From: Actinomycetes bacterium
GTDB taxonomy: Bacteria > Actinomycetota > Acidimicrobiia > Acidimicrobiales > RAAP-2
Direction: 5' to 3'
NCBI GenBank assembly: GCA_021831125.1
Contig: JAKBNI010000007.1
Span: 1-46,190, forward strand
Length of the DNA: 46,190 nucleotides
Below, in pieces: positions 6,044 to 22,928 of this stretch (its first letter is position 1; the number at the start of each line of letters is the position of its first letter). The position numbers were made by a program, and so were the translations under genes. The notes below the pieces were generated by a model, which made no database searches, was not told the DNA's origin, and saw only the letters and a list, made by a program, of their open reading frames with translations.

Positions 6044-6199
6044 CTGATTGGCGGCGTCCGCGGTCCTTGCGGCTGTGTGAGTCACCAGAAGAGTCCGATT
6101 TCCACCTTGTGTCAACTGACGACTTGAAGGGCGCTCTCGCACTGCACGGCGAATCGAGCGCAGCGACCGTTGTGTGGAGCTGCAGAAGGGTTGGTGAGC

Positions 6200-8131
6200 G
6201 TGTCGAGACTATTCCTCTCAACTCAGTTGCGGGTTCTCGCACGAGAGTTGAGAAGGTCGAAGCATGGGCGCAGATGGTTAGTGACTCTTGTCCGACTTGC
6301 TCTAGTGAGCGTGATACTGACTCTTGTCTCAATTCCTCTCACCGAGTTTGTGGCTTCGGCAACGTCCGTCTATCACGCCGTGACATTCGAAGAGAATGAC
6401 AACTCCTCTGACGGCGTGTACGCGACTCAGACTGAGAATGCTGCAACTCCATTGACGCTGTTCGCGTCGCTCAACCCCTCCTTTAGCAATCCCGGTTTCA
6501 CCTTCGTGGGCTGGAATACGGCGTCTAATGGCACAGGAACCGCCTACGCCAACGGTGAGACCTACAACTTCTCTTCAGACTTAGTCCTTTTCGCCCAATG
6601 GCAAGGCAGTTATCACGCAGTGACCTTCTACGAGAACGACTCATCGGGTGACAGTGTTTATGCGACCCAGTCTGCGAACATTCCCGAAGCTCTCACCACT
6701 TTCTCAAGCCTCTCTCCTAGTTTCTCGAACACTGGCTATACCTTCACAGGCTGGAACACCTCAGCCAATGGATCTGGTGTTTCCTATGCAGATGGAGCCC
6801 TTTACTCATTCGCTGCAGATATCTCGCTCTACGCTCAGTGGACCGCGAACGCGTCGTACATCGTGAACTTCGCGGACAACGGTGGTTCTGGTACCGTCAC
6901 TCCGCTCTCGTCCCCGCCCGGAACCCCCTTCGTCCTGCCTGGTGGGAGTGGACTCAGCGACCCTGGCTACACCTTCACGGGATGGAACACGCAACCCAAC
7001 GGCCAGGGAACCGCTTACCCGGTGGGCTCGTCGCTCACCCTGACCTCCAACCTCACCCTTTACGCCCAGTGGTCGGCCGACGCGGTTGTGTCGGTGACCT
7101 TCGTTGACAATGGGGGTACGGGAACCGTGAACCCGGTGTCGGCGCCGGGGGGATCGTCGGTCACCCTTCCTGGCGGGACGGCGCTCAGCAACGTCGGGGA
7201 GACGTTTGTGGGCTGGAACACGCAACCCAACGGCCAGGGAACCGCCTATGCGGTGGGCTCGTCCCTGACCCTCATCTCGAACTTGACCCTCTACGCCCAG
7301 TGGACGACGTCGAAGCTCGTCGTGACCTTCGACGCGGATGGCGGCTCGGCCAGCGTCTCGTCGGAGCAGTTCGCTGCCGGCGCACCGCCCGTCGCGCTGC
7401 CCGGCGCCACGATGGTGGGATCGACTTTCGAGGGGTGGTTCACGGCCCCGACGGGCGGAACGCTCGTCGGCGTTGCCGGCGCGTCCTACGCGCCGACCGA
7501 CTCGGTCACCCTGTACGCCCAGTGGTCGAAGTCGGTGTCGCCGACGCCGACGTCGTCGACACCGACGTCGTCGGTTGTGCTCACGTTCGCGGCCAACGGT
7601 GGAAGTGGATCCCTCTCGCCGGAGACCGTGGCGGCGGGCACGTCAGCGAGTCTGCCCGGTGACGTGTTCATCCGCCCGGGCTTCGTCTTCAAGGGGTGGT
7701 CGACGTCACCAAAGGGGAGCGGAGCGCTCTACGCCGCCGGAGAGTCGATAGCGCCGACGACGTCCGAGACGCTCTACGCGGTGTGGCGTCGCAACGCGGC
7801 GGTGGCCACCCTGTACGGAGCGGTCGGAGACTTCCCGCGCTTCACGACCGCCCTCACCCCTGCGCTGTCTCGCCAGGTCATGACCTTGGCCCGTGTCATC
7901 CGAGCGCGGCGGTGTCGGAAGGTCGAGCTCCTGGGCTATACCGCCTCGACGGGGCTCTTGAGCATCGACCGTGTGGTGAGCGCCCGGCGGGCCCAGGTCG
8001 TCGCGCGAGCCCTGCGGATGGACCTTCGTCGACTACGCGTGCGGGGCGTCACCATCCGGGCGAGTGGGCAGGGCTCGATCGACCGACGGACCGCACCCGT
8101 GTACTCACGGGTCGAGGTCTTCCTCGCCTAG
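6200..8131 (+). CDS. Exported protein with six InlB-type B repeats (Flg_new/List-Bact repeat) and OmpA-like C-terminal domain
   Basis: Probable surface or envelope protein. A basic N terminus and one hydrophobic segment (WLVTLVRLALVSVILTLVSI) serve as signal anchor. Six beta-grasp repeats of about 70-77 residues follow, each ending in a form of G-x-T/F-x-GWNT ... LYAQW (approximate nt 6380-6600, 6612-6840, 6859-7071, 7090-7302, 7318-7524, 7576-7782). A Thr/Ser/Pro linker (nt 7538-7570) separates repeats 5 and 6. The last 110 residues resemble an OmpA peptidoglycan-binding domain (LLGYTAS..LS..R..SARRAQVVARAL). The start is uncertain: TTG 6170, GTG 6194 and GTG 6200 are in frame; AGAAGGG at 6184-6190 favours 6200. 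The 5' half is A/T-richer than the flanking genes. Function unknown; adhesion or wall association is inferred from the family. Confidence 0.85.
   Translation: MSRLFLSTQLRVLARELRRSKHGRRWLVTLVRLALVSVILTLVSIPLTEFVASATSVYHAVTFEENDNSSDGVYATQTENAATPLTLFASLNPSFSNPGFTFVGWNTASNGTGTAYANGETYNFSSDLVLFAQWQGSYHAVTFYENDSSGDSVYATQSANIPEALTTFSSLSPSFSNTGYTFTGWNTSANGSGVSYADGALYSFAADISLYAQWTANASYIVNFADNGGSGTVTPLSSPPGTPFVLPGGSGLSDPGYTFTGWNTQPNGQGTAYPVGSSLTLTSNLTLYAQWSADAVVSVTFVDNGGTGTVNPVSAPGGSSVTLPGGTALSNVGETFVGWNTQPNGQGTAYAVGSSLTLISNLTLYAQWTTSKLVVTFDADGGSASVSSEQFAAGAPPVALPGATMVGSTFEGWFTAPTGGTLVGVAGASYAPTDSVTLYAQWSKSVSPTPTSSTPTSSVVLTFAANGGSGSLSPETVAAGTSASLPGDVFIRPGFVFKGWSTSPKGSGALYAAGESIAPTTSETLYAVWRRNAAVATLYGAVGDFPRFTTALTPALSRQVMTLARVIRARRCRKVELLGYTASTGLLSIDRVVSARRAQVVARALRMDLRRLRVRGVTIRASGQGSIDRRTAPVYSRVEVFLA
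6983..7302 (+). repeat. Near-identical DNA repeat, period 231 nt, inside the B-repeat gene
   Basis: A 32-nt block starting TGGAACACGCAACCCAACGG occurs at 6983 and again, identical, at 7214. Similarity continues to the LYAQW codons of each repeat. The offset of 231 nt is 77 codons, so repeats 3 and 4 look like a recent in-frame duplication. Confidence 0.8.
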
Positions 8132-9638: not shown

Positions 9639-9644
9639 TTGGGG

Positions 9645-9754
9645 GGTCATCAAGAGCGACTGAGGGACGGCCCCTTTGACGTCGCGACAACCAGTGTGGG
9701 TCCCGGGTTCACCCTCCACACCAGGTGCCAAAGGCCGAACGATGAAAGGGAGAC
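9645..9754 (+). ncRNA. SAM-I clan riboswitch (SAM-I or SAM-I/IV variant)
   Basis: Cis-regulatory leader expected to bind S-adenosylmethionine. P1 is TCATC (9647-9651) with GATGA (9741-9745). The conserved core reads CAAGAGCGACTGAGGGACGG, then GGCCCC, TTTGACGTCGC, GACAACC, and GGTGCCAA at 9724-9731. P2 closes with GCGAC (9656-9660) and GTCGC (9681-9685); P3 with GTGTGG (9694-9699) and CCACAC (9716-9721). P4 is nearly absent, only about 9 nt between GGTGCCAA and P1', which suggests the SAM-I/IV variant; GGCC 9669-9672 could form the pseudoknot with GGCC 9733-9736. The Shine-Dalgarno AAAGGGAG (9745-9752) abuts P1', so control is probably at translation. CCCTTT (9672-9677) is complementary to AAAGGG (9745-9750). 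Confidence 0.88.
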
Positions 9755-11002
9755 ATGGGATATTCGCTCGGGCTCATCTGTCGAGAGTGCGCCACCACCT
9801 ACCCCGCGGAGGCGCGTTACGTGTGTGAGCGGTGCTTCGGACCGCTCGAGGTCGCCTACGACCTCGACGCGGCGCGTGGGCGGGTGACCCGCGAGTCGAT
9901 CGAGGGCGGGCCGCGCTCGATGTGGCGCTACCGCGACCTGCTGCCTGAGGTCGGCGACACGCCGGTCGACCTCGGGACGGGCTGGACGCCGCTGCGCCGG
10001 GCCGACCGACTCGCCGAACGGCTCGGGGTGCGCGAGCTGTGGCTGAAGGACGACACGCTCAATCCGACGGGATCGTTCAAGGACCGGGTCGTGTCGGTGG
10101 CGCTCTCGGTCGCGCGTCGACTGGGCTTCACGACGGCGGCCTGCGCCTCGACCGGCAACCTCGCGACCTCGGTGGCGGCCCACGCCGCGGCGATGGGCTG
10201 GCCCAGCGTGACGATCATCCCCTCGGACCTCGAGACCTCGAAGATCGTGATGGCCGCGGTCTTCGGGGGAGTCGTGCTCGGCGTCGAGGGCAACTACGAC
10301 GACGTGAACCGGCTCTGTGTGGAACTGGTGAGCGAGCACCCCGACTGGGCGTTCGCCAACGTCAACCTGCGCCCCTTCTACGCGGAGGGGTCGAAGACCC
10401 TCGCCTTCGAGATCGCCGAACAGCTGGGGTGGCGGCTGCCCGACCAGGTGGTCGTGCCGATCGCCTCAGGGAGCCAGTTCACCAAGGTGGCCAAGGGTTT
10501 CGCCCAGCTGCGTGCGCTCGACCTCGTCGAGGGGGCGCCGCCCCGGCTCTTCGGCGCTCAGGCCGCCGGCTGTTCGCCGGTGGCCACCGCTTTCGCCGAG
10601 GGCGCCACGGCCATCCGGCCCCAGAAGCCGCGCACACTCGCGCGCTCGCTCGCCATCGGCAACCCGGCCGACGGCCCCTACGTGCTCGACGAGCTTCGTG
10701 CGGGCGGGGGGGACTGCGGGTCGGTCACCGACGAGGAGATCCTGGAAGGGATCGAGCTGCTCGCCTCGAGCGAGGGGGTCTTCGCCGAGACCGCCGGCGG
10801 GACGACGATCGCGTCGTTGCGCCAGATGGTCCGACGCGGAACCGTCGACCCCGAGGGATCGATCGTGGCGATCATCTCGGGCCACGGCCTCAAGACCGTC
10901 GAGGCGCTCGCGGGGCGCTCGGGGGTCACCGCCACGATCCCACCGACCCTGGTCGCCGCCGAGGACACCCTGACGGCGCGGCTGCTGGTGGGGGCGTCGT
11001 GA
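9755..11002 (+). CDS. thrC: Threonine-synthase-like PLP enzyme; candidate sulfur-carrier-dependent homocysteine synthase
   Basis: By family, a fold-type II PLP enzyme acting on O-phosphohomoserine, usually named threonine synthase. The 415 residues carry an N-terminal zinc ribbon (Cys9, Cys12, Cys24, Cys27), the PLP lysine at K109 in NPTGSFKDR, a CASTGNLATS phosphate-binding loop and a C-terminal ETAGGTTIAS segment. Two contextual facts point away from plain threonine synthesis: a SAM-type riboswitch precedes it, and the next gene, overlapping by 4 nt, is a ThiS/MoaD-like carrier ending in Gly-Gly. By analogy with CysM-CysO (O-phosphoserine plus carrier thiocarboxylate gives cysteine), I infer O-phosphohomoserine plus carrier thiocarboxylate giving homocysteine. 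The family call is firm; the homocysteine role is inference. Confidence 0.88.
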   Translation: MGYSLGLICRECATTYPAEARYVCERCFGPLEVAYDLDAARGRVTRESIEGGPRSMWRYRDLLPEVGDTPVDLGTGWTPLRRADRLAERLGVRELWLKDDTLNPTGSFKDRVVSVALSVARRLGFTTAACASTGNLATSVAAHAAAMGWPSVTIIPSDLETSKIVMAAVFGGVVLGVEGNYDDVNRLCVELVSEHPDWAFANVNLRPFYAEGSKTLAFEIAEQLGWRLPDQVVVPIASGSQFTKVAKGFAQLRALDLVEGAPPRLFGAQAAGCSPVATAFAEGATAIRPQKPRTLARSLAIGNPADGPYVLDELRAGGGDCGSVTDEEILEGIELLASSEGVFAETAGGTTIASLRQMVRRGTVDPEGSIVAIISGHGLKTVEALAGRSGVTATIPPTLVAAEDTLTARLLVGAS

Positions 11003-11274
11003 GCGTCGTGGTGCGCCTGCCGGCCCAGCTGCGGGCCCTGGTCGGTGGCGCGGGGGAGGTCGAGGTCGAGGCGCGCACGGTGCGCGAGGCGATCCTCACG
11101 GTCGACGCGGCCCACCCCGGTCTCGCCGAGCGGGTGCTCGACGACGGGGGGGCACTGCGACGCTTCGTCAACGTGTTCGTGGCGGACGAGGACGTCCGAT
11201 TCCTCGACGGGCTGGACACCGTGCTGTCCGATGGCGAGACGATATCCCTGGTCCCAGCGGTCGCGGGGGGGTGA
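10999..11274 (+). CDS. ThiS/MoaD/CysO-type sulfur carrier protein
   Basis: A 91-residue beta-grasp protein (VVVRLPAQLRALVGG...VREAILTVDAAHPGLAERVLDD...FVNVFVADEDVRFLDGLDT...GETISLVPAVAGG). It ends precisely in Gly-Gly, the C terminus that is adenylated and converted to a thiocarboxylate in ThiS, MoaD and CysO. GTG 10999 overlaps the stop of the ThrC-like gene by 4 nt, which implies coupled translation and shared riboswitch control. The likely job is sulfur donation to that enzyme. No activating E1-like enzyme or JAMM protease gene is in the window. The CIRCE of groEL begins 9 nt after its stop. Confidence 0.88.
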   Translation: MSVVVRLPAQLRALVGGAGEVEVEARTVREAILTVDAAHPGLAERVLDDGGALRRFVNVFVADEDVRFLDGLDTVLSDGETISLVPAVAGG

Positions 11275-11335: not shown

Positions 11336-12976
<1,641 letters not shown>

Positions 12977-20400: not shown

Positions 20401-21804
20401 ATGCCCTACGGCGACATGGACGTGGCGGCGAGCCCGCTCGAGTTGATCGGCCACACCCCGATGGTGCGCCTGACCAAGGTCGCCGAGGGCGTGGCGTGCG
20501 ACGTGATCGCCAAGCTCGAGACCACCAACCCCGGGGGCAGCGCCAAGGACCGTCCGGCCCTCACCATGGTCGAGGCGGCCGAGCGCGACGGACTGCTCGG
20601 ACCGGGCTCGACGATCATCGAGCCCACGAGCGGCAACACCGGGGTGGGCCTCGCCATCGTCGCCGCCCAGCGCGGCTACCGGTGCGTCTTCGTGATGAGC
20701 GACAAGATGGCGCCCGAGAAGATCGACGTCCTGCGCGCCTACGGGGCTCAGGTGGTGGTCTGCCCGACCGCCGTGGCGCCCGAGCACCCCGACTCCTACT
20801 ACTCGACGGCTGAGCGGCTCACCCGCGAGACCCCCCACGCCTTTCGACCCGACCAGTACTCCAATCCGAACAACCCCCGGGCCCACTACGAGACGACCGG
20901 TCCCGAGATCTGGACCCAGACCCGCGGGCGGGTGACCCACTTCGTCGCCGGGGCCGGGACCGGGGGCACCATCTCGGGCGTCGCGCGCTACCTCAAAGAG
21001 CAGGACCCGTCGGTCCAGGTGATCGCGGCCGACCCCGAGGGATCGGTCTTCTCCGGTGGGGCCGGCCGACCGTACCTCACCGAGGGTGTGGGCGAGGACT
21101 TCTGGCCGGCCAACTACGACCCCTCGCTCGTCGACCGCGTCGTGCCGGTCTCGGACGCCGACGCGTTCGCCATGGCGCGTGCGGTCACTCGTCGTGAGGG
21201 ACTGCTCATCGGGGGCTCGGGCGGGACGGCCGTGGCGGCCGCGCTGCGTGTCGCCCGCGACCTGCCGGCTGAGGCGCTCGTGGTCGTCCTCATCCCCGAC
21301 TCGGGGCGGGGCTACCTGTCGAAGATCTTCAACGACACGTGGATGACCGAGTACGGCTTCTTACGCCCCCACGACGAGGACGACGTGGGCGACGTGCTCG
21401 CGGCCAAGCGGGCGCGTCCGGGCGAGGGCCTGGACGACCTCGTGCTCGTGACCGAGGACGTACTCGTGCGTGACGCCATCGCCCTCATGCGCGCGAAGGA
21501 CGTGAGCCAGCTGCTCGTGACCGTTACCGACGAGCTCCCGCTCGCCGCGAAGGAGGTCTCGGGCTCGTTGAGCGAGCTCGGGCTGCTCGAGGCGACGACC
21601 CGAGACGCGTCGGTGCTCGGGCTCCGAGCCAAGGACGTGGCGGACCCGCCGCTCGCGATGGTGGGGGTGGGCATGCCCGTCACCGACCTCACCCGGGAGC
21701 TGTCGCGCACCGCGGGGGTCCTCGTGCTCGACGGCGGGCACCCGGTGGGCGTCCTCACGCGCTCGGACCTCTTGAGCTTCCTCGAGCAGCGCAGGGCCGG
21801 ATGA
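20401..21804 (+). CDS. cbs: Cystathionine beta-synthase with C-terminal CBS pair
   Basis: PLP enzyme condensing serine and homocysteine to cystathionine (reverse transsulfuration). 467 residues: catalytic fold-type II domain (1-325) with PLP Lys49 in NPGGSAKDRPA, SGNTGVGLAI, GAGTGGTISGVA and IGGSGGTAVAA, then two CBS motifs (about 335-465) that in some relatives bind adenosyl ligands. It lacks an N-terminal heme domain. Overlaps the following cystathionine gamma-synthase/lyase by 4 nt, which gives a complete homocysteine-to-cysteine route. Confidence 0.93.
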   Translation: MPYGDMDVAASPLELIGHTPMVRLTKVAEGVACDVIAKLETTNPGGSAKDRPALTMVEAAERDGLLGPGSTIIEPTSGNTGVGLAIVAAQRGYRCVFVMSDKMAPEKIDVLRAYGAQVVVCPTAVAPEHPDSYYSTAERLTRETPHAFRPDQYSNPNNPRAHYETTGPEIWTQTRGRVTHFVAGAGTGGTISGVARYLKEQDPSVQVIAADPEGSVFSGGAGRPYLTEGVGEDFWPANYDPSLVDRVVPVSDADAFAMARAVTRREGLLIGGSGGTAVAAALRVARDLPAEALVVVLIPDSGRGYLSKIFNDTWMTEYGFLRPHDEDDVGDVLAAKRARPGEGLDDLVLVTEDVLVRDAIALMRAKDVSQLLVTVTDELPLAAKEVSGSLSELGLLEATTRDASVLGLRAKDVADPPLAMVGVGMPVTDLTRELSRTAGVLVLDGGHPVGVLTRSDLLSFLEQRRAG

Positions 21805-22928
21805 GCGGGTTCAACACGCGCGCGATCCACGTGGGCTCCGAGCCCGACGCGACCGGCGCCGTCAACCCGGCCGTCTACCTCACCTCGACCTACGCCCAGG
21901 AGGCGGTCGGGGTGCCGCGCTTCGCCGACTACTCCCGGGTCGACAACCCGACCCGCCACGCCCTCGAGGACTGCCTGGCCGACCTCGAGGGGGCGGAGTG
22001 GGGCGTGGCCTTCGCCTCGGGTCTCGCGGGCGAGGACGCCCTGTTGCGCACGCTCGGCCCCGGGGACCACGTCGTGCTCGGCAGCGACGCCTACGGCGGG
22101 ACCTACCGCCTGCTCACTCGGGTCTTCGGCGCCTGGGGGGTCGAGGTGACCTGTGTCGACCTCGCCGACGCCGCGGCGGTGGCCGCGGCGATGCGGCCCA
22201 CCACGCGACTCGTGTGGGCCGAGACGCCGAGCAACCCCCTGCTCGGGATCGTCCCGATCGGTGACCTGGCCGACCTGGCGCACACCCACGGATCACGCCT
22301 CGTGGTCGACAACACGTTCGCCACGCCGTACCTCCAGCGGCCCCTCGAGCACGGCGCCGACGTCGTCGTGCACTCGACGACCAAGTACGCCGGAGGCCAC
22401 TCCGACGTCGTGGGTGGCTTCGTCGCCACGAGCGACGAGGAGCTGGCCGAGCGGCTGCGCTTCCACCAGTACGCCATCGGCGCGGTCCCCGGGCCGCTCG
22501 ACTGCTATCTCGTGCTGCGCGGACTCAAGACCCTCGGGGTGCGCATGGAGCGCCACTGCGCGAGCGCCGCCGCCGTGGCCGACTTCCTGGCGGCTCACCC
22601 CGCCGTCGAGCGCGTCTACTACCCCGGTCACACGGACCACCCGGGCCACGAGGTCGCGCGACGCCAGATGACGGGCTTCGGCGGCATGGTGAGCTTCACG
22701 GTGGTCGGTGGGGACGAGGCCGCGCGCGAGGTCTGCGAGGCGACGCGCGTCTTCACCCTGGCCGAGTCGCTCGGGGGCGTGGAGAGCCTCATCGAGCTGC
22801 CGGCCGCGATGACCCACGCCTCGACGAGTGGGTCGGTGCTGGAGCCGCCGGCCTCGCTCATCCGGCTCTCGGTCGGCCTCGAGGACGTCGAGGATCTGAT
22901 CGAGGACCTCGGCGAGGCCCTCGGCTGA
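21801..22928 (+). CDS. metB: Cystathionine gamma-synthase / gamma-lyase
   Basis: Fold-type I PLP enzyme of the Cys/Met metabolism family, 375 residues. PLP Lys195 in HSTTKYAGGHSDVVGG, GFNTRAIHVG start, YSRVDNPTRHALE, ASGLAGEDALL, VVDNTFATPYLQRPLEHGAD and the C-terminal SLGGVESLIELPAAMTHAST. Sequence alone does not separate synthase from lyase; coupling to cbs argues for gamma-lyase activity (cystathionine to cysteine). A hairpin follows its stop. Confidence 0.92.
   Translation: MSGFNTRAIHVGSEPDATGAVNPAVYLTSTYAQEAVGVPRFADYSRVDNPTRHALEDCLADLEGAEWGVAFASGLAGEDALLRTLGPGDHVVLGSDAYGGTYRLLTRVFGAWGVEVTCVDLADAAAVAAAMRPTTRLVWAETPSNPLLGIVPIGDLADLAHTHGSRLVVDNTFATPYLQRPLEHGADVVVHSTTKYAGGHSDVVGGFVATSDEELAERLRFHQYAIGAVPGPLDCYLVLRGLKTLGVRMERHCASAAAVADFLAAHPAVERVYYPGHTDHPGHEVARRQMTGFGGMVSFTVVGGDEAAREVCEATRVFTLAESLGGVESLIELPAAMTHASTSGSVLEPPASLIRLSVGLEDVEDLIEDLGEALG

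Follow-up and report, generated by a model that had tools for sequence, protein, structure and literature searches.

The window considered here is a stretch of 46,190 nucleotides (nt) from an Actinomycetes bacterium belonging to the order of Acidimicrobium (assembly GCA_021831125.1, contig JAKBNI010000007.1), and the subject of this analysis is a pair of genes, metM and metO, placed behind a S-adenosylmethionine (SAM) riboswitch and proposed to encode a homocysteine synthase and its sulfur carrier. The first gene codes for a ThrC-like enzyme with a zinc ribbon, and the second one, overlapping it by 4 nt (GTGA), for a ThiS/MoaD-like protein ending in Gly-Gly. This arrangement had been described in an initial annotation based on the sequence, and it was confirmed by profile matches and coordinates. 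The features of the locus, together with other genes of the window, are reported in Table 1.

Table 1. Position of the metM-metO unit, its regulatory elements and other genes in the window
Feature	Coordinates	Strand	Basis or remark
SAM (S-box, SAM-I) riboswitch aptamer	9644..9748	+	RF00162, 47.1 bits (gathering score 44.4); P4 missing from the alignment
AAAGGGAG, likely ribosome-binding site	9745..9752	+	Sequence and aptamer end; would overlap the aptamer 3' end
metM, ThrC-like fold-type II pyridoxal phosphate (PLP) enzyme with zinc ribbon, proposed O-phosphohomoserine-dependent homocysteine synthase	9755..11002	+	ATG start, 415 residues
Zinc-ribbon cysteines C9, C12, C24, C27 of MetM	9779..9835	+	Alignment
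Codon of K109, presumed PLP lysine in SFKDR of MetM	10079..10081	+	Alignment
metO, ThiS/MoaD-like sulfur carrier	10999..11274	+	GTG start, 91 residues, C-terminus ...LVPAVAGG
Codons of the MetO C-terminal Gly-Gly, proposed thiocarboxylate site	11266..11271	+	Sequence
groEL	11354..12976	+	Named by eye; frequent neighbor
Cystathionine beta-synthase (CBS)	20401..21804	+	TIGR01137, 538.4 bits (cut-off 510.25); context, outside the metM-metO unit
Cystathionine gamma-lyase/synthase	21801..22928	+	NF005871, 577.1 bits (cut-off 513); context

Just 6 nt separate the 3' end of the aptamer from the start codon of metM, and the likely ribosome-binding site lies partly inside the aptamer, which suggests that the riboswitch acts at the level of translation. 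When the window was compared with its nearest relative (locus L006), the differences at codon positions 1, 2 and 3 were 20, 13 and 97 in metM and 5, 3 and 20 in metO; since they fall mainly at third codon positions, both genes look as if they were under purifying selection.

The MetM protein matches PF00291 at 236.5 bits and scores above the cut-off of the threonine synthase family (TIGR00260 thrC, 263.1 bits versus 167.1), whereas it remains under that of NF006050 (278.1 versus 303) and far below that of the cysteine synthase family TIGR01136 (cysKM, 34.5 versus 344.15), to which it cannot be assigned. Its AlphaFold model (predicted local distance difference test score 90.2, predicted template modeling score 0.90) finds its nearest solved folds among the threonine synthases, the closest being 2c2b (Z 50.2, root-mean-square deviation 2.2, 405 aligned residues), and K109 is presumably the lysine binding PLP, as is usual in this fold. 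The four ribbon cysteines are invariant in 21/21 aligned sequences and are kept in all 26 MetM rows and in the four rows of a sister group (see below); the four-cysteine ribbon was not seen in nine ThrC orthologues of the order. N-terminal cysteine pairs are present in three distant ThrC rows (L136, L139 and L140, read upstream of the matched stretch), and for this similarity the zinc ribbon was rejected as a hallmark of MetM.

The separation from ThrC can be appreciated both in the tree and in the active site. When 44 proteins were placed in a tree, a branch with support 98/99 split all 30 MetM rows, including the Streptomyces ones, from the 12 ThrC rows; in this tree there are long branches that come together, the ThrC rows are not gathered into a single group, the root is a midpoint one, and other Streptomyces copies served as stand-ins for the MetM of S. 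albulus. At a number of MetM positions (as an example, 136, 137, 206, 209, 213, 238-240, 306, 307, 346, 348 and 349), the residue kept in 25-26 of the 26 MetM rows is not the one kept in 8-9 of the nine ThrC orthologues, a count that leaves out the three distant ThrC rows, in which a few of the MetM residues also occur. The motifs STGNLA, RxxY.EGSK, SGS, NPADG and ETAGG of MetM stand against STGNTS, NPxR.EGQK, GNAGN, NPASW and EPASAAS of the ThrC orthologues of the order, so that the canonical active-site motifs of ThrC are not found in MetM. As judged from model and alignment, the fold is that of ThrC, but the active site and the gene company are not.

The genome to which the window belongs (2.02 Mb in 139 contigs, 87% complete) harbors a separate canonical thrC on contig C61, whose product is 37% identical to MetM and reaches 315.9 bits on TIGR00260; this gene adjoins a frame resembling, by eye, homoserine dehydrogenase. 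The initial annotation had advised looking for such a second thrC and had considered that metM being the only one in the genome would speak against its proposal; MetM as the only threonine synthase of the genome is therefore ruled out.

The carrier MetO matches PF02597 (ThiS) at 50.8 bits and exceeds the cut-off of the NCBIfam SAMP1 family (63 bits versus 60). As for the MetO C-termini of the related loci (L006-L085), 55/78 end exactly in Gly-Gly and 21 have 1-3 extra residues (C, CC, A, AR, AS, AN, Q, SH, SHD, GHG and the like); 8 extra residues are present in L057, and the end in L056 could not be resolved. Tails extending beyond Gly-Gly would need trimming before activation.

The organization of the locus is widely maintained. 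Among the related loci retrieved from a scan of named genomes, i.e., the best 80 of a larger set, a MetO-like gene adjoins the MetM-like gene in 78 and a SAM riboswitch precedes the MetM-type gene in 69. The riboswitch is also present at 12/12 further MetM loci of the order, plus L121, L126, L127 and L129, and the two thrC loci of the canonical type that were tested, L002 and L131, gave no match. In the close relatives L006, L009, L012 and L013, the distance from the aptamer to the matched start is 6-7 nt. The frequency of the carrier and of the riboswitch, together with the third-codon-position bias, indicates that this arrangement is more than chance. A divergent sister group (L122, L123, L124 and L125, from genomes G028, G061, G097 and G150, respectively) shares 43-47% identity with MetM, has a metO gene adjacent, and occurs in genomes that also contain MetX.

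The distribution of MetM was then compared with that of the classical routes to homocysteine in two sets of genomes, namely 41 relatives (the own genome and 40 others, each at least 85% complete) and 298 genomes drawn evenly from the larger order, the own genome included, with a filter of at least 90% completeness; both filters drop poorer genomes. The cut-off of TIGR01392 (MetX), 500 bits, was reached by none of the genomes nor by 14 controls, and the line for MetX was chosen by us at E <= 1e-60 (order) or at least 390 bits (relatives); the line for MetM, also chosen by us, was E <= 1e-80 with at least 57% identity. In the relatives, MetM was found in 30 genomes (including one copy cut at a contig end in G011 and one split in G019), MetX in 20, both in nine and neither in none. 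Outside the genus, the six genomes of this set with MetM all lack MetX, and the ten lacking MetM all have MetX (one of them, G028, with a sister protein of 47% identity). MetA is present in three of the 41 genomes, the own one not among them, and HcyBio (DUF39) in none, the control for the latter having been found in 3/14 known genomes; on these grounds both the MetA and the HcyBio routes were ruled out. Neither MetX, MetA nor HcyBio was found in the own genome at its 87% completeness. Twelve of the 41 genomes (G006, G009, G011, G013, G014, G016, G017, G019, G020, G031, G032 and G036) have no MetX, MetA, HcyBio or full-length PF01053 match and all of them contain MetM (in two cases cut or split by contig ends), which is therefore the only candidate left there among the routes searched.

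In the order, 84 genomes have only MetM, 190 only MetX, 16 both and eight neither, while about 69 with both and about 61 with neither would be expected if the two were independent; the classical MetX is thus missing from 84 of the 100 genomes with MetM. If the four sister proteins (43-47% identity) are counted, the genomes with both become 20 and those with MetX only become 186. The Fisher test applied to this exclusion ignores relatedness; at the family level, MetM only is seen in 19 families, MetX only in 26 and both in five. MetM and MetX mostly exclude each other in the order.

Homology, gene context and this complementarity of gene content make it very probable that the pair of the window is a MetM-MetO system forming homocysteine from O-phosphohomoserine and a carrier thiocarboxylate, as the initial annotation had proposed; since MetX, MetA and HcyBio were not found in the genome, it would probably be the main or only source of new homocysteine here. 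According to PMC12172450, which cites Hasebe et al. 2024, in S. albulus the homocysteine synthase MetM converts O-phosphohomoserine, metO is adjacent and a SAM riboswitch lies upstream of metM; MetM homologues in cyanobacteria are also mentioned there. The ThrC-like route in Streptomyces, which the initial annotation mentioned without certainty, is therefore real, and the mechanism is not new. The S. albulus system shares with the window the ThrC-like enzyme, the adjacent ThiS-like carrier and the upstream riboswitch; the MetM proteins of further Streptomyces species share 55-58% identity with that of the window and come from loci of the same architecture. The original work, by Hasebe et al. 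in 2024 (Appl Environ Microbiol 90:e01247-24), reportedly found O-phosphohomoserine and thiocarboxylated MetO to be the substrates of MetM, and noted the presence of the pair in further bacteria and in archaea. The streptomycete-like order of the three genes was correctly perceived too, given that groEL begins 1283-1446 nt past the end of metM in seven Streptomyces loci. Some differences exist, however: in Streptomyces a gap of about 55-118 nt separates metM and metO in most of the loci seen (L085 read from an upstream start), instead of the 4-nt overlap, and the aptamer ends about 59-89 nt before the start codon in seven loci, instead of 6 nt. Moreover, the host of the window belongs to the order of Acidimicrobium and apparently lacks the classical MetX route.

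Other systems are related to different extents. The CysM-CysO-Mec+ system of M. tuberculosis (structure 3dwg) likewise combines a PLP enzyme of fold type II with a ThiS-like carrier; MetO matches the carrier chain of 3dwg with E 2.1e-18 and MetM matches its enzyme chain weakly (E 4e-6). That system makes cysteine from O-phosphoserine, and the genome has a locus of this kind of its own on contig C19. In Wolinella succinogenes, a methionine route based on a protein thiocarboxylate was reportedly described by Krishnamoorthy and Begley in 2011, in which a MetY-type enzyme of fold type I acts on O-acetylhomoserine. The sulfur of homocysteine would thus come from a carrier thiocarboxylate in both cases, but the enzyme of Wolinella is a PF01053 one, whereas that paired with the carrier in the window belongs to PF00291, and the single gene of the genome for a full-length PF01053 protein is located next to that for CBS. 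Canonical ThrC proteins (1uim, 1v7c, 2zsj and 2c2b) have the same fold, PLP lysine and, as predicted for MetM, the substrate O-phosphohomoserine, but no carrier.

The genome also contains genes that might supply MetO with sulfur. On contig C59 there is a MoeB-like E1 with a rhodanese-like N-terminal part (NF006444, 570.9 bits versus a cut-off of 449), and a second, weaker ThiF match (87.4 bits) was found on C56. On contig C19, three genes in a row encode a JAMM peptidase (84.4 bits on Prok-JAB), a carrier resembling CysO and a protein resembling cysteine synthase, the latter reaching 321.5 bits on TIGR01136 and thus remaining below the cut-off of 344.15. The CysO-like carrier (L096, 4344-4628) directly follows the JAMM gene and ends in AVAGGFL, which suggests that the JAMM protein trims its GGFL end; carrier-dependent cysteine synthesis probably exists beside that of homocysteine in this genome. 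In its carrier, JAMM and cysteine-synthase-like genes, the C19 locus resembles an actinobacterial operon type described by Iyer et al. 2006 (PMC1779556), which comprises ThiS/MoaD, JAB, cysteine synthase and ClpS. In the six Nitrospirota loci (L059, L063, L066, L070, L071 and L077), tblastn revealed a cysteine-synthase-like gene and two ThiF/E1-like genes around metM-metO in all cases. The analysis of L071 with Pfam disclosed a ThiS-like protein, PALP, ThiF, MetO, a protein with a NIL domain, a second ThiF and JAMM, the position of MetM being after the first ThiF and before MetO; JAMM was also confirmed by Pfam in L063, i.e., in both Nitrospirota loci tested. Of all the contextual evidence, this gene row speaks most strongly for an activation and processing of MetO similar to those of other sulfur carriers.

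On these bases the following mechanism can be proposed. The Gly-Gly end of MetO would be adenylated by an enzyme of the E1 type, for which the MoeB-rhodanese protein of C59 is the likeliest candidate, and the addition of sulfur would convert this end into a thiocarboxylate. MetM would bind O-phosphohomoserine as a PLP aldimine and the phosphate would be eliminated; the carrier sulfur would then add at the gamma carbon, yielding homocysteine either free or first as a carrier adduct to be released by a protease. The gamma-replacement and release steps are suggested by the Streptomyces report and by the CysM-CysO parallel. The resulting homocysteine might be methylated to methionine or enter the pair formed by CBS and cystathionine gamma-lyase in the same window, and high SAM would shut the metM-metO unit via the riboswitch, probably at translation.

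Several observations weigh against this proposal or limit its reach. The score of the riboswitch in the window exceeds the RF00162 gathering score by just 2.7 bits, a thin margin. The riboswitch was not found at 11/80 loci, namely Aquificota L046, L049 and L057, the six Nitrospirota loci, L008 (where the search covered only 90 nt of upstream sequence) and L010; L128, which is a MetM locus from the own genus, and the four sister loci gave no match either. In Aquificota L046 and L049, no carrier gene adjoins that of the enzyme (the contig of L049 ends 633 nt downstream). In the twelve genomes left with MetM, the best PF01053 matches are short and do not exceed 31.1 bits; in six of them the scores, at 27-31 bits, barely exceed the cut-off of the family (27), and we read these as other PLP enzymes. 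MetM and MetX coexist in 16 genomes of the order, and four more combine the sister protein, MetO and MetX, so that MetM is not always the sole route; neither MetM nor MetX was found in eight genomes (G044, G074, G083, G113, G181, G233, G252 and G279), owing perhaps to assembly gaps or to another route. On C61 (L098, 1003-3867), no thrB lies between thrC and the following frame, Rho-like by eye, homoserine kinase not having been searched genome-wide, and O-phosphohomoserine should therefore come from a gene elsewhere or of an unusual type. Since the genome is 87% complete, absences in it are weak if taken alone. Lastly, a Microcystis homologue, 51.6% identical to the MetM of S. albulus and with a metO-like gene adjacent, is described in PMC12172450 as mainly a threonine synthase and also a threonine deaminase, not fully a MetM in the cell.

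This last case is in agreement with a different explanation, according to which the first gene simply encodes another, ordinary threonine synthase, or one that doubles as threonine deaminase, with the carrier as a passenger. The score of MetM above the thrC cut-off and the threonine synthases being its nearest solved folds point in the same direction, as does the annotation of S. lividans, where, in PMC8079986, the SAM riboswitch unit SLIV_16930-SLIV_16925, apparently equivalent to metM-metO, is placed under threonine biosynthesis. Nevertheless, it is quite unlikely, given that the same genome has a canonical ThrC, that the riboswitch accompanies MetM-type genes and was not found at the thrC loci tested, that the carrier stands beside nearly all the enzymes, that the exclusion of MetX concerns methionine rather than threonine, and that the active-site positions of ThrC are replaced in MetM. 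Also very unlikely is that MetM, even though a homocysteine synthase, uses free sulfide in the cell, with MetO raising the local sulfide or being an accessory: the two Aquificota enzymes without an adjacent carrier would fit this scheme, while a carrier overlapping or close by in 78/80 loci, and E1-like and JAMM genes in the same Nitrospirota row, argue against it.

It might finally be supposed that homocysteine derives mainly from transsulfuration by the PF01053 protein of the window (e.g., a plant-like cystathionine gamma-synthase acting on O-phosphohomoserine) and that MetM does something else. The best NCBIfam name of this protein is indeed cystathionine gamma-synthase, and no other protein of the genome matches PF01053 over its full length (456.2 bits for this one, the next best being 28.8 bits over 109 positions). 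Its gene, however, overlaps by 4 nt that for CBS, which points to the reverse direction; the two genes (20401-22928) would thus form a reverse transsulfuration pair converting homocysteine into cysteine. As 12/41 genomes keep MetM without any full-length PF01053 match, this explanation can hardly be credited, and the PF01053 protein was rejected as the homocysteine source.

As for the other genes of the window, groEL is located on the same strand within 1.5 kb downstream of metM in 38/80 related loci, and it is not thought to be part of the MetM-MetO pathway. A frame of 653 residues (6170-8131), in which units of about 70 residues with LYAQW at their end are repeated and the C-terminal part is repeat-free, looks like a secreted repeat protein.

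The distribution of the MetM-MetO system has a bearing on a gap already noticed in the literature. Price et al. 2018 (PMC5764234) stated that no known homocysteine route is present in Acidimicrobium ferrooxidans, Aquifex aeolicus or Pyrolobus fumarii, and that at least one such route was still to be discovered. The genome G052, taken to be that of A. ferrooxidans, harbors a MetM of 57% identity, a MetO ending in PAVAGG and a SAM riboswitch (60.0 bits), and MetX was not found in it. A contig labeled as A. aeolicus (L049) contains a MetM homologue, and neither riboswitch nor carrier was found in the short stretch covered. Among the matches listed in the open literature, no paper linking MetM to Acidimicrobium, Aquifex or Nitrospirota was found, beyond the gap reported in PMC5764234; the portion available of PMC12452182 holds nothing on the metM-metO pair, PMC13257386 does not mention MetM, and the GapMind paper (PMC7311316) names neither Aquifex nor Acidimicrobium.

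The mechanism is known from Streptomyces; the host group, i.e., the order of Acidimicrobium, is new. With a fair degree of likelihood, the homocysteine route reported as missing from such autotrophs as the Aquificota and A. ferrooxidans, an iron-oxidizing relative, is MetM-MetO, and it has replaced MetX in the group studied here; cysteine and methionine would both be made from phosphorylated precursors and sulfur bound to carriers, a single activating enzyme would serve both pathways, a JAMM protease would either trim the carriers or free the amino-acid adducts, and the Nitrospirota would keep the whole set in one row. The homocysteine gap of A. ferrooxidans now has a concrete, testable candidate. 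More generally, this suggests that genes named thrC and located beside a ThiS-like gene may often be misannotated methionine genes, an error that could make the bacteria harboring them look falsely like methionine auxotrophs.

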